A stretch of DNA of 51,656 nt, taken from an uncultured Azospirillum sp. (lineage in GTDB: Bacteria > Pseudomonadota > Alphaproteobacteria > RF32 > CAG-239). Positions within the stretch are counted from its first letter, which is position 1. Each line of letters opens with the position of its first letter. This document shows, piece by piece, positions 6,016-46,798 of this stretch. Under the pieces are notes generated by a model. The model saw only the letters and a list, made by a program, of their open reading frames with translations, was not told the DNA's origin and made no database searches. Location: contig CAMYUM010000011.1 of the NCBI GenBank assembly GCA_947301965.1, positions 1 through 51,656 on the forward strand, read 5' to 3'. Made by a program: the position numbers and the translations under genes.

Positions 6016-7248
6016 ATGTTAAACTACATTTGGGCATTCTTTTTTATTGCAAGCTTTATTGCCGCGGTCATCACATGCTTTTTAGGCGGCAATATAGATA
6101 TTTGGTCGCAGATGAGCAATGCTTTATTTGAGGCGGCCAAATCGGGTTTTGAGATTTCCATTTATCTTACCGGAATGCTCTGTTTTTGGCTCGGATTACT
6201 TAAAATTGCCGAAAAATCCAAGATAACAGACAGTTTAGCGCATTTTCTTTACCCGTTGTTTAAAAAAATAATGCCGGAAATTCCTGAAAAATCCCTGGCT
6301 TTCGGTTCTATTGTTATGAATATTGCTGCCAATATTCTCGGTCTTGATAATGCGGCTACTCCGATGGGGCTGAAAGCTATGGAACAGCTTCAGGCTGAAA
6401 ACAAAAGCCGTACTTCGGCCTCTAATGCTCAAATTTTGTTTATGGTCATCAATTCATCATCAGTTACCTTAATCCCGATTACAATACTTATGTATCGCAG
6501 TCAGTCAGGCAGCTCTAACCCAGGTTTAGTCTTTATTCCGATTTTGTTGGCGACATCAATTTCAACGCTGGTCGGATTTTTGAGCGTTGCGATGGTTCAA
6601 CGTCTTAACATATTTAACCGCGTTGTTTTGCTGTACGGGATCATTTTTGTCGGCATAATTTCGGCATTAGGAGCCGGCTTTGCTCTGTTAGGAGCCGAGG
6701 CTCGTGCGGCATTATCATCAAGCCTGGGCAATTTTATCCTGATTTTTACGATTTTTTGTTTTATTACCATAGGATTATGCCGCAAAATCAAGGTGTATGA
6801 CGAATTTATCAAAGGTGCAAAAGAAGGATTTAATATTGCCGTTTCCATCATTCCCTATTTGGTGGCAATGCTTGTGGCAATAGCATTGTTTCGCAGCTCC
6901 GGAGCTCTTGATTTGTTGATTATGGGAGTCGAAAAAATCTGCACCATCTTTAATTTGAATGCCGATTTTGTGCCGGCTCTTCCTACTGCCTTGCTGAAAC
7001 CGCTTTCCGGCAGCGGCGCTCGGGCCATGATGATCGAAACTATGCAAAATTACGGTGTTGATAGTTTTCCGGCTTTTGTTTCATCGGTTGTTCAAGGTTC
7101 TACCGAAACAACATTTTATGTTTTGGCGGTATATTTCGGTGCGGTAAAAATTACTAATACCCGACACGCACTCCCTTGTGCGTTGCTTGCTGATTTAGCA
7201 GGTATTGTTGCTGCAGTATTGCTGAGTTATTGGTTTTATGCCGGCTGA
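6016..7248 (+). CDS. SpmA-SpmB fused membrane protein (nucleoside-recognition/Gate domains)
   Basis: The 410-residue, multi-helix inner-membrane protein has an N-terminal half matching spore maturation protein A (for example MNIAANILGLDNAATPMG) and a C-terminal half matching SpmB (LKPLSGSGARAM and VVQGSTETTFYVLAVYFG). In sporulating Firmicutes these are two proteins needed for spore core dehydration. Fused versions occur in non-sporulating bacteria, where the role is unknown and transport of a small molecule is only suspected. GGAG lies inside the end of the upstream ABC gene. Its last 13 bases overlap the convergent thioesterase gene. Confidence 0.85.
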   Translation: MLNYIWAFFFIASFIAAVITCFLGGNIDIWSQMSNALFEAAKSGFEISIYLTGMLCFWLGLLKIAEKSKITDSLAHFLYPLFKKIMPEIPEKSLAFGSIVMNIAANILGLDNAATPMGLKAMEQLQAENKSRTSASNAQILFMVINSSSVTLIPITILMYRSQSGSSNPGLVFIPILLATSISTLVGFLSVAMVQRLNIFNRVVLLYGIIFVGIISALGAGFALLGAEARAALSSSLGNFILIFTIFCFITIGLCRKIKVYDEFIKGAKEGFNIAVSIIPYLVAMLVAIALFRSSGALDLLIMGVEKICTIFNLNADFVPALPTALLKPLSGSGARAMMIETMQNYGVDSFPAFVSSVVQGSTETTFYVLAVYFGAVKITNTRHALPCALLADLAGIVAAVLLSYWFYAG

Positions 7249-7982
7249 TTTTCGCGCCAGTTAATGCGTATCCTTGCCACTTCGCGCCCGTCATCTGTGG
7301 CGTTCAGACAGTGCAAAGATGTCATTCCGTCAATTTGTGAAATTACTTCTATGGTTTCACCGTACAGGCTTTCTTTTTTGAATGATATTTCAATTTCTGC
7401 CGGTTGGTGATTTAGTCTGAAATCGTTATCTACACTTTCCGTTGCCCATAACGGATAAATAGCGTTATTAACATGCTTATTAACGTCAATGTCGTCATAC
7501 CTTACAATAAATGATTTTTTTATATCTTCACGAGCTGCGGCATCAATCTTTGGAAATTCCGTATTCAAAGCTCGTTCTTCTACCACCTGATAGTCTGGCA
7601 TATGCTCACGCAGAGCCACCGGACGTTTGCGCACAAAATCAATCAAAATCCATTGACTTGAAGCGACAATAATTACGTTTCCCTGTTCATCGGTAATGCA
7701 AAAGTCACGTACTGCACCGAGTTTTTTCTCTTGTGCCGGCCAGGTGGTAACGGTTATTTTTTCGTGCCAAAACGGCATACGATTAATTTTAATGTGATAA
7801 TTTGAGCCGACCCAAGCCAGCCCTTTTTCCAAACAATGCTCAATCCCCACCCCTAAAATCAGAGCATGGGAGTCGGCAGCGTCCTGAAGAATATTCATTA
7901 ACGCCACAATTCTGAGGGTTCCGTTGCTGTCACACTCATAACTGCGTAACGAATATTCACGGACAAGCTTACCGACTTGCAT
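7236..7982 (-). CDS. Acyl-ACP thioesterase (Fat family)
   Basis: The 248-residue product has the double hotdog layout of acyl-ACP thioesterases, which release free fatty acids from acyl carrier protein. The N-terminal domain has LRIVALMNILQDAADSHA and GLAWVGSNYHIKINR. The second hotdog has DIDVNKHVNN, which supplies the family's conserved Asn and His. This family is best known from plants and from Firmicutes and Bacteroidetes and is less usual in Alphaproteobacteria. It starts 4 bases after the lytic transglycosylase stop, so the two form one unit. Its 3' end overlaps the SpmA-SpmB gene on the other strand. Confidence 0.85.
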   Translation of the reverse strand: MQVGKLVREYSLRSYECDSNGTLRIVALMNILQDAADSHALILGVGIEHCLEKGLAWVGSNYHIKINRMPFWHEKITVTTWPAQEKKLGAVRDFCITDEQGNVIIVASSQWILIDFVRKRPVALREHMPDYQVVEERALNTEFPKIDAAAREDIKKSFIVRYDDIDVNKHVNNAIYPLWATESVDNDFRLNHQPAEIEISFKKESLYGETIEVISQIDGMTSLHCLNATDDGREVARIRINWRENQPA

Positions 7983-7986
7983 TTTG

Positions 7987-8652
7987 CTAATCTTTCATAG
8001 AAATTTGCAGCTCTTTGGCTTTTTTGTTCTGATTAAACAGTCTGCCTAACCAACTGCGATTATCCTCGGTAATCATCATGTTTGAGGCGTAATTGGTCAG
8101 ATATTGACTGCGCTCAATCTTAACATTTTTGAGTGCAACCAAGAGCTTTCTTGTATATACGCTAGCCTTACGCTGATTCCGCGAGTGATAATCAGCTGCT
8201 GCCCGCAACCAATCTTTGCGGACATTATAGCGATTTTTCAAAAATCTTGCAGCAACATCAACGTTTTTGTGGGGATCAAAAGCATCTTCCACGCTGGCAA
8301 ACTCCTTGCCATGAAAACGCAGATTTATTTGCATGCACCCTACATCAATGCTCTTATAACCGCGTTTTTGCCACTCTTTAACGGCGGCAACGGCTTCAGC
8401 CTTTGTTTTATAAAAGTAGCCTTTGCCGTTCACGTTTACAGTCCAAGGCCAAGCCACCTTTTGGGCGAGCTTTCCGTTCCAACGTCCGGTTTCAACATTT
8501 GAGATAGAAGTTAATAAATTTGTTTTTATCTGATATTTTTCTTCTGCCTGAACAGTAGCATTCAAACAGACAAAATCATCATCGACAACCACAGTTTCCT
8601 GTGCTTCTGCCGGCAATGGCTGAAATAACATCAGCAATATTAGAAAAATCAT
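7987..8652 (-). CDS. Secreted lytic transglycosylase, SLT-like
   Basis: The 221-residue product has a short hydrophobic signal peptide (cleavage probably after PAEA, about residue 17) and a lysozyme-like domain at about 35-170. The probable catalytic glutamate is in SNVETGRWNG. Further family motifs are DVGCMQINLRFHG and FDPHKNVDVAARFLKNRY. It should cleave peptidoglycan glycan strands in the periplasm. No clear Shine-Dalgarno precedes the ATG at 8650-8652; the leader there contains a GATACTT/AAGTATC hairpin and the RNA-like element at 8686-8831, so its expression may be controlled at the RNA level. Confidence 0.75.
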   Translation of the reverse strand: MIFLILLMLFQPLPAEAQETVVVDDDFVCLNATVQAEEKYQIKTNLLTSISNVETGRWNGKLAQKVAWPWTVNVNGKGYFYKTKAEAVAAVKEWQKRGYKSIDVGCMQINLRFHGKEFASVEDAFDPHKNVDVAARFLKNRYNVRKDWLRAAADYHSRNQRKASVYTRKLLVALKNVKIERSQYLTNYASNMMITEDNRSWLGRLFNQNKKAKELQISMKD

Positions 8653-8685
8653 TAAATCTTTTGATACTTATAAAAATCCAAGTAT

Positions 8686-8831
8686 CCCTCTGTTCCCTCG
8701 GACTGCCACAAACATCCCCCGTCGATACGGTTTCAGCTTGCTTAAAGGCAAAACCAAAAAAAATCCGAGGTCAGGTTATTAAAACTACACACGACCTGCT
8801 TTCGCAAGTCGTACCTCATTAAAACAGAGGG
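8686..8831 (-). ncRNA. Candidate structured RNA or leader element of unknown family
   Basis: The gap between two minus-strand genes contains nested complementary segments. Outer stem: CCCTCTGTT 8686-8694 with AACAGAGGG 8823-8831. Inner stem: CCTCGGA 8696-8702 with TCCGAGG 8764-8770. A hairpin at 8791-8799/8804-8812 is fully paired only on the minus strand (with one G-U) and then closes with a GAAA tetraloop, so minus is preferred. An alternative pairing (8767-8771 with 8813-8817) would be followed by eight Us, like a terminator. A possible -10 lies just upstream at about 8832-8842. I see no SRP, tmRNA or known riboswitch motif. Confidence 0.45.
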
Positions 8832-8843
8832 GTTATAACATAA

Positions 8844-9728
8844 CTATTTTTTAAAATCCAGCAAAAAATTTGCAAGGGCCGTTATGGCATCACATATATC
8901 GGCACTAAGATATTGAAAATTCGCTATTTTTTTATACACAGGTTCGTCCTCATAGAGCGCCCTGTTTATTTCCATTTGCAGGGTATAAATGTTTTTTCGG
9001 GGCTGGCAATAATTAAAACTTATGTACGCTCCGGAATACGGACAATCCAGACTGACATTATACTTTTGTCCCAGATATTGGTTCATAAATTCAATAACTT
9101 CTGCCGGACAGCTTTGTTCGAACAGAGTGCCGAGACAGAACTCTATTTGTCGATTGTCTTCCATAATATTACAAATTTTTGACGGCATTGAATGACAGTC
9201 CAACACCAGACAGATACCGAACTTTTTGACCGTACGATCAATCATTTTTTGTAAAGATTTATGATAAACATTATATACGTTTTTAATTCGGCTCTGCGCT
9301 TCATTGTAATTCAGCAGCCCGTCATAAATGTTTTTTCTCTCAGATGTAATACGGTGAAACAACCCCAATCCGACCCGGCTTCTTTTGTTGCCGCTGACCA
9401 TACTGTTTGCCGGATAATTGTAAAACATGACCGGATCGACCTCAATTGCATCGCGGTTTATATCAATAAAAGCTCTGCCGATGTTCAATTTTACCATCGG
9501 AATGCCTAAATCAGAAGCATCCATCAACAATTCATCAACAAAAGGATCTTCGTTTGAACGCAAATCTTCTTCCGACACGCATATATTTTCCAAAAACTCT
9601 TTCGGAAAAATCCGTCCGCTGTGAGGAACCGACAACACCAGCGGATATCGCTGGTTTTGCGTGTTATATTCGCTGATTACCTCAAGCTTTGAATAATCGA
9701 CTTTAAAATCAAGCTGTTTTTCACTCAT
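8844..9728 (-). CDS. N-formylglutamate amidohydrolase family protein
   Basis: The 294-residue product belongs to the family that hydrolyses N-formylglutamate (as in histidine degradation) and related N-acyl amino acids. The motifs LSVPHSGRIFP near residue 32, EDPFVDELL, INRDAIEVDP and LVLDCHSMPS are present, giving the metal-binding His/Asp/Glu set. GAGGAAAA precedes the ATG. No hut genes are nearby, so the substrate may differ from formylglutamate. It is the first gene of the minus-strand group 7236-9728. Confidence 0.8.
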   Translation of the reverse strand: MSEKQLDFKVDYSKLEVISEYNTQNQRYPLVLSVPHSGRIFPKEFLENICVSEEDLRSNEDPFVDELLMDASDLGIPMVKLNIGRAFIDINRDAIEVDPVMFYNYPANSMVSGNKRSRVGLGLFHRITSERKNIYDGLLNYNEAQSRIKNVYNVYHKSLQKMIDRTVKKFGICLVLDCHSMPSKICNIMEDNRQIEFCLGTLFEQSCPAEVIEFMNQYLGQKYNVSLDCPYSGAYISFNYCQPRKNIYTLQMEINRALYEDEPVYKKIANFQYLSADICDAITALANFLLDFKK

Positions 9729-9843: not shown

Positions 9844-9919
9844 GGGTGTGTAGCTCAGCGGTATGAGCACTACGTTGACATCGTAGGGGTCACAAGTTCG
9901 ATCCTTGTCACACCCACCA
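9844..9919 (+). tRNA. tRNA-Val (anticodon GAC), with encoded CCA
   Basis: All arms fold. The acceptor stem GGGTGTG pairs with CACACCC, the D stem is GCTC/GAGC, the anticodon stem CTACG/CGTAG closes a 7-base loop TTGACAT, and the T stem ACAAG/CTTGT closes TTCGATC. The anticodon GAC at 9877-9879 reads GUC and GUU valine codons. The 3' CCA is encoded at 9917-9919. A terminator follows 8 bases later, so it is probably a single-tRNA transcript. Confidence 0.97.
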
Positions 9920-46622: not shown

Positions 46623-46798
46623 CTAAAAACTTTTTTAGAGAGAACCGTCCGGCCGTATAGGTGCATTCTTACACGAACCGCATCTCAATAAGTGGGCGCC
46701 ATATACCAAGACCACGATCAGGGCAGGGACAGCTCCCCTAAAAAACTTGAGGCTCGGAAGATCTGCGGAACTACGCACCGGACAGTAAACTCTCCATA
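46623..46798 (-). ncRNA. ssrS: 6S RNA candidate (SsrS)
   Basis: The gap between the phosphoesterase and zapA fits 6S RNA, which binds and inhibits sigma-70 RNA polymerase. In many Proteobacteria ssrS lies directly after zapA. The ends pair: GAGAG 46638-46642 with CTCTC 46790-46794, and GTCCGG 46647-46652 with CCGGAC 46778-46783, enclosing a long imperfect stem with a central bubble. The internal phrase GGCGCCCACTT on the minus strand recalls alphaproteobacterial 6S. Ends are approximate; a promoter and terminator flank it. Confidence 0.7.

Follow-up and report, generated by a model that had tools for sequence, protein, structure and literature searches.

A conserved 5' leader RNA of a lytic transglycosylase gene in gut and rumen alphaproteobacteria, with a hairpin between Shine-Dalgarno and start codon

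An intergenic stretch at positions 8686-8831 of the window (the whole 51,656-nt stretch of DNA that was analysed) had been predicted to form a structured RNA, either a riboswitch- or attenuator-like leader or a free-standing RNA. The questions raised by this locus were which strand carries the RNA, whether its fold is kept in other genomes, and what it might do for the neighbouring genes.

The structured stretch is flanked by an N-formylglutamate amidohydrolase gene and by a gene for a small secreted lytic transglycosylase (LT), and it lies in the gap from the stop codon of the first to the start codon of the second. An acyl-ACP thioesterase gene follows LT. All three genes and the RNA are on the minus strand (Table 1). 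The N terminus of LT resembles a signal peptide by its sequence, and the protein is therefore probably exported from the cytoplasm. The window's genome comes from an uncultured alphaproteobacterium, and its nearest named relatives were two metagenome-assembled genomes, uncultured Rhodospirillales bacterium RUG10691 and Alphaproteobacteria bacterium Tb.RUG.69, RUG standing for rumen uncultured genome. On the opposite strand, a tRNA-Val (GAC) gene (9844-9919, plus) was seen immediately before the amidohydrolase gene.

Table 1. Features of the leader and its locus, in window coordinates
Feature	Position	Strand	Basis or remark
N-formylglutamate amidohydrolase gene	8844-9728	minus	Pfam FGase match; upstream neighbour
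Possible -35 element CTGGAT, 18 nt before -10	8856-8861	minus	putative, from sequence
Extended -10 element TGTTATAAC	8832-8840	minus	TGNTATA in 78/78 leaders checked, a pattern demanded by the leader search itself
Whole leader RNA	about 8650-8831	minus	immediately downstream of the -10 box up to the start codon of LT; comparative leader alignment
Pyrimidine tract CCCTCTGTTTT	8821-8831	minus	holds predicted transcription start, G 8825; 5' strand of outer stem
Variable 5' hairpin, GAAA loop in window	8791-8812	minus	similar hairpins there in genus mates; sequence and loop free
P1 5' strand CCTCGGA	8764-8770	minus	both-sided changes in 6/7 pairs
P2 5' strand GCC (partner GGC, 8705-8707)	8747-8749	minus	covariation alignments
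UUUAA bulge after P2 5' strand	8742-8746	minus	
P3 5' strand GCAAGC (partner GTTTGT, 8708-8713)	8736-8741	minus	4/6 pairs covary within the family
Internal-loop strand UGAAA, conserved	8731-8735	minus	GAAA invariant in 41 diverse leaders
P4 hairpin CCG...CGG	8719-8730	minus	covariation alignments
Internal-loop strand GGGAU, facing UGAAA, conserved	8714-8718	minus	first two Gs and A invariant across 41 leaders, third G almost invariant
P1 3' strand TCCGAGG	8696-8702	minus	strong covariation
Shine-Dalgarno AGAGG	8687-8691	minus	columns invariant in 26-leader alignment
P5 hairpin GATACTT...AAGTATC, between Shine-Dalgarno and start codon	8663-8686	minus	98.7% of cells paired (26-leader alignment)
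LT gene (SLT domain, 221 aa)	7987-8652	minus	Pfam SLT, E 1.2e-07
Acyl-ACP thioesterase gene	7236-7982	minus	downstream of LT

On either strand, the stretch folded better than its 200 dinucleotide shuffles (z -4.25 and -4.31). The strand was assigned from the non-Watson-Crick pairs. In two alignments made without a covariance model, G-U cells outnumbered A-C cells by 84 to 13 (26 leaders) and by 50 to 3 (core alignment). Read from the plus strand, the G-U cells would turn into A-C mismatches, which identifies the minus strand as the transcribed one.

At the DNA level, 27 of 90 related genomes gave matches. A leader was obtained from 26 of these, all from one family and all in the same intergenic gap. 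RNAalifold on the 26 leaders returned P1, P3, P4 and P5 directly, with compensatory change in 17 of 24 pairs. When P2 was included, 93.8% of the cells in this alignment could pair, compared with 38-46% for slid partners and 84.8% for shuffled ones.

A covariance model built from the 26 leaders (R1) matched the window at 8650-8779 with 120.8 bits. It gave one match each in 87 of 152 family genomes, 61 of them outside the training set. In the 86 distinct sequences, 97.5% of the cells paired (about 42% when slid) and both sides had changed in 17 of 25 pairs, in an alignment which was fitted to the model and so leans towards it. P1 to P5 are the helices with covariation support, and the compensatory changes that the original prediction had proposed as a check were found. 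Outside the family, R1 had no match in 289 genomes sampled across the class. The family is made up of gut and rumen alphaproteobacteria, mostly uncultured.

All the stems named in the original prediction are present in the sequence, and they fared differently in the comparison. The inner 7-bp stem is P1, which is conserved with strong covariation. It had been listed among the stems, while P3, P4 and the hairpin beside the Shine-Dalgarno sequence (SD) had been missed. The predicted extent took in the core of the leader and fell short at one end, as the element continues through the covarying P5 to the start codon at 8650. The 9-bp hairpin with its GAAA loop can form in the window and is not conserved; a GNRA hairpin was found in 7 of 78 leaders.

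Genera that gave no R1 match still have LT, and the LT leader there carries the same core, in the order of a 5-6 bp stem (P3), NGAAA, P4, GGGAN and the P3 partner. Once these diverged genera were included, all six P3 pairs covaried. In 41 leaders of all types, both-sided changes were seen at every P3 pair, and the covariation score was 0.84, compared with 0.31 after shuffling and at most 0.25 after sliding; these counts lean to the model, since a pattern favouring GAAA, GGGA and pairing had served to choose the core positions, a bias limited by the shuffled and slid controls and by anchoring just upstream of LT. With GAAA facing GGGA, four consecutive purine pairs of the G-A type could form.

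In the order's other family, a weak match (26.4 bits, E 0.0006) fell on the corresponding position, in a leader that is partly N. This family has AGAGGGATGCGTTTAGTATC, then 10 nt, then ATG, which is the same layout of SD, hairpin and start. In the sister family of the order (L112, G050:C58), the LT leader consists mostly of N, and the core was therefore unreadable. By eye, the stretch upstream of a Kiloniella LT homologue had no GAAA/GGGA core.

LT had been described as lacking a clear SD. The comparison identified one, AGAGG, which is split from the ATG by a conserved hairpin: the order at the LT start is SD, P5 directly after it, then ATG. In 72 leaders the distance from SD to start was 25-37 nt along the sequence and 7-10 nt, mostly 10, with the hairpin skipped. 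The most variable P5 pair was GC or UA in a ratio of 13:13, both sides having changed together. The diverged genera were without a hairpin at this place, and their linear spacing was roughly 10-12 nt as judged by eye. In genus g3 (L121-L157), LT apparently starts with GTG, not ATG, and this GTG lies inside a possible short hairpin, ACACG...CGTGT.

A hairpin that restores normal SD-AUG spacing is the arrangement of T4 gene 38. In T4 genes 38 and 25 the SD is far from the AUG in linear distance, and a hairpin shortens the spacing from 22 to 5 and from 27 to 11 nt, respectively (PMC3014915). In both the phage genes and the LT leader, a distant SD is brought to a working distance. On the other hand, the hairpin of the leader is kept by covariation in dozens of bacterial species, and it directly follows a structured, possibly ligand-binding domain. 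The leaders thus offer a natural series of SD-AUG hairpins kept by compensatory changes, by which the old phage observation becomes testable as a general bacterial device.

The structure is tied to LT. Each of the 78 leaders checked ends where LT begins and has the amidohydrolase gene on its upstream side. Among the diverged genera, g3 and g14 have no amidohydrolase gene next to the leader, and no thioesterase gene was seen following LT in g4; the promoter, the leader and LT remain linked in spite of these changes. Six genomes of leader-bearing genera that had no R1 match also had no LT, two of them being rated 100% complete.

A short core model was used for second copies in the same or other genomes, and the seven weak matches inspected were all inside protein genes (by sequence, for example, glycogen-branching-enzyme-like, penicillin-binding-protein-like and NuoG-like). 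Its three matches outside the family in a class-wide search all overlapped protein-coding frames. No second site is known, since the extra matches inspected lie in protein genes. From the association with LT only, the loss together with LT and the lack of a second site, we concluded that the element, a folded minus-strand RNA not catalogued before, is a cis leader of LT.

The original prediction had also pointed to a possible -10 just before the outer stem, and this was borne out by the extended -10 element in Table 1. The element is kept even in genera without the upstream amidohydrolase gene. The possible -35 element overlaps the 3' end of the amidohydrolase gene, and CTGGAT or CTGGAC is retained upstream of leaders where that gene is absent. 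A generic sigma-70 scan found nothing at the LT leader promoter. In 50 of 78 leaders, the -10 is followed by its first purine at a distance of 7-9 nt, and LT transcription probably starts near 8825 from this extended -10 promoter.

This start bears on the outer 9-bp stem, which is present on the minus strand (CCCTCTGTT at 8831-8823 with AACAGAGGG). Its 5' strand, CCCTCT, is at or before the predicted start and would be mostly missing from such a transcript, so that its function as a stem is doubtful; the two strands are not co-adapted between species. As a conserved anti-SD, the outer stem had no support from a swap test; a test with shuffled tracts was positive, and the pairing is kept as a rival reading below.

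We propose that the element is a lineage-specific, cis-acting, riboswitch-like leader that controls the translation of LT, with a probability of about two in three. The riboswitch-like leader upstream of LT was the part of the original reading that held. Its cis position in the 5' leader was found in 78 of 78 leaders, and its covarying structure surrounds conserved unpaired bases. P1 enclosing P2 and P3, together with the GAAA/GGGA purine loop and P4, would make a compact, receptor-like fold. This core may bind a small molecule or a protein, and binding would alter the state of the SD, free or paired, because P1 ends 4 nt before it. P5 would close the otherwise overlong spacing, so that use of the distant SD by the ribosome would require both a folded P5 and an open SD. 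That the leader regulates LT is what this arrangement suggests; alternatively, its effect could be constitutive, a higher translation or mRNA stability with no switching. In leaders folded from the predicted G, the SD was unpaired about half of the time (mean 0.49), which counts against a clear-cut off state.

Known translational riboswitches such as preQ1 and SAM-II have likewise a compact conserved core, a closing stem that ends a few nucleotides before the SD, and covarying stems around invariant loop bases. The LT leader differs from them in having no Rfam match, one regulated gene, and only candidates for its ligand and its sequestering strand. The 5' strand of P1 could be such a strand, as its CCUC could pair with GAGG of the SD. 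Among the alternative SD pairings, none had covariation support. A single regulated gene gives little hint of the ligand. From the nature of this gene, cell-wall turnover products or nucleotide sugars are the natural first candidates, and we propose none of them with confidence. A bolder reading, less likely than not, is a new riboswitch class: the GAAA/GGGA loop would be the receptor for a metabolite of the cell wall or a nucleotide sugar, and it would set LT translation by way of an SD that is usable only when the spacer hairpin is folded.

Instead of a metabolite, a protein may be what the loop recognizes. LT itself, a ribosomal protein or another RNA-binding protein would then block or help LT translation in the manner of autoregulation. 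A single gene, present in a single copy in one lineage, would suit such a protein, and a short conserved internal loop in freely covarying stems is typical of protein sites and aptamers alike. On the other hand, LT probably leaves the cytoplasm, and no RNA-binding partner is known. CsrA was considered because GGGAU and AGAGGGAU resemble its sites, which contain similar GGA motifs, and it was rejected, as its gene was absent from all seven genomes tested and detected in the control genomes. We regard a protein-binding leader as somewhat unlikely. A switch between transcripts is a further reading: those bearing the tract, made by read-through from the upstream gene or by initiation at C residues, would be silent by pairing of CCCTCT with the SD, and those starting at G 8825 would be translated. 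Such a switch would resemble E. coli pyrC, in which start-site switching is sensitive to nucleotides. Long tract-SD pairing is possible in the window, and in folded leaders the SD was mostly closed with the tract included (mean unpaired 0.25) and more open when they began at the predicted G (0.49). The real tracts paired with -10.0 kcal/mol, compared with -7.5 kcal/mol for shuffled ones, and for this reason the reading was retained although the swap test was negative. In that test, a leader's own tract-SD pair (mean -10.04 kcal/mol) was no better than swapped pairs (-10.37 kcal/mol), so the two are not co-adapted. The longest uninterrupted helix was mostly 5-7 bp, the tract is missing in g5, g6 and g14, and it may be a conserved initiation region and nothing else. 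Such a switch appears improbable.

A free-standing small RNA with its own promoter upstream of LT had been offered in the original prediction. The promoter-like element fits it, as does a terminator-like hairpin with a weak U tail at 8814-8789. This hairpin, however, precedes the conserved core, and the terminator scan found no terminator between the core and the start codon. The conserved element continues into the SD, with its end always at the LT start codon, and was found neither away from LT nor in the LT-less genomes examined, all of which makes an independent RNA quite improbable. Transcription attenuation fared worst and is very unlikely. It would depend on the alternative 5-bp stem GAGGU/ACCUC, in competition with the inner stem, and on the eight Us. 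This stem (GAGGT/ACCTC before GGA-TTTTTTTT in the DNA) and the U run are indeed present in the window and in its two closest relatives, but elsewhere in the genus the leaders have no GAGGU partner, a long U run at this position is missing from the other genera, and the scan made no terminator call for the stem and U run. The preferred reading remains a leader that acts on the translation of LT.

The earlier failure to match the element to a family was confirmed with Rfam 15. There was no match over the element at gathering scores, and the relaxed search gave only chance matches (E 1.5-3.4). On eight whole related loci, Rfam found tRNA, tmRNA and weak chance matches away from the leaders. No description of the element was found in the literature searched; the supplementary motif tables of large RNA surveys lie outside this scope and may hold it as an unnamed entry. 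The YjbJ motif of Streptococcus is a candidate structured RNA of two hairpins, upstream of a gene annotated as lytic transglycosylase (PMC11109978). It shares with the LT leader this position, but it has two hairpins and is confined to Streptococcus, and nothing in the description of it in that paper, the basis of the comparison, indicates homology.

As a structured regulatory leader, the element belongs to a known kind of RNA, in which it forms a new family; its hairpin between SD and AUG is unusual and well supported. We know of few RNA elements that control peptidoglycan-cutting enzymes, and this family is a concrete candidate for RNA sensing of the state of the cell wall.

Other RNA genes were noted in the same searches. 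A two-piece tmRNA had been considered for the window from the string TATCGACGGGG and was rejected: the window has no RF01849 match, and the tmRNA lies elsewhere (G000:C6:41729-42075), on another contig of the window's genome than LT. In some other genera a two-piece tmRNA is close to the LT gene (L140, 1227-1559; L118, 237-677). The window also holds a 6S RNA gene at 46638-46791 on the minus strand (Rfam RF00013), with a score of 50.9 bits, just over the cut-off of 46.4.
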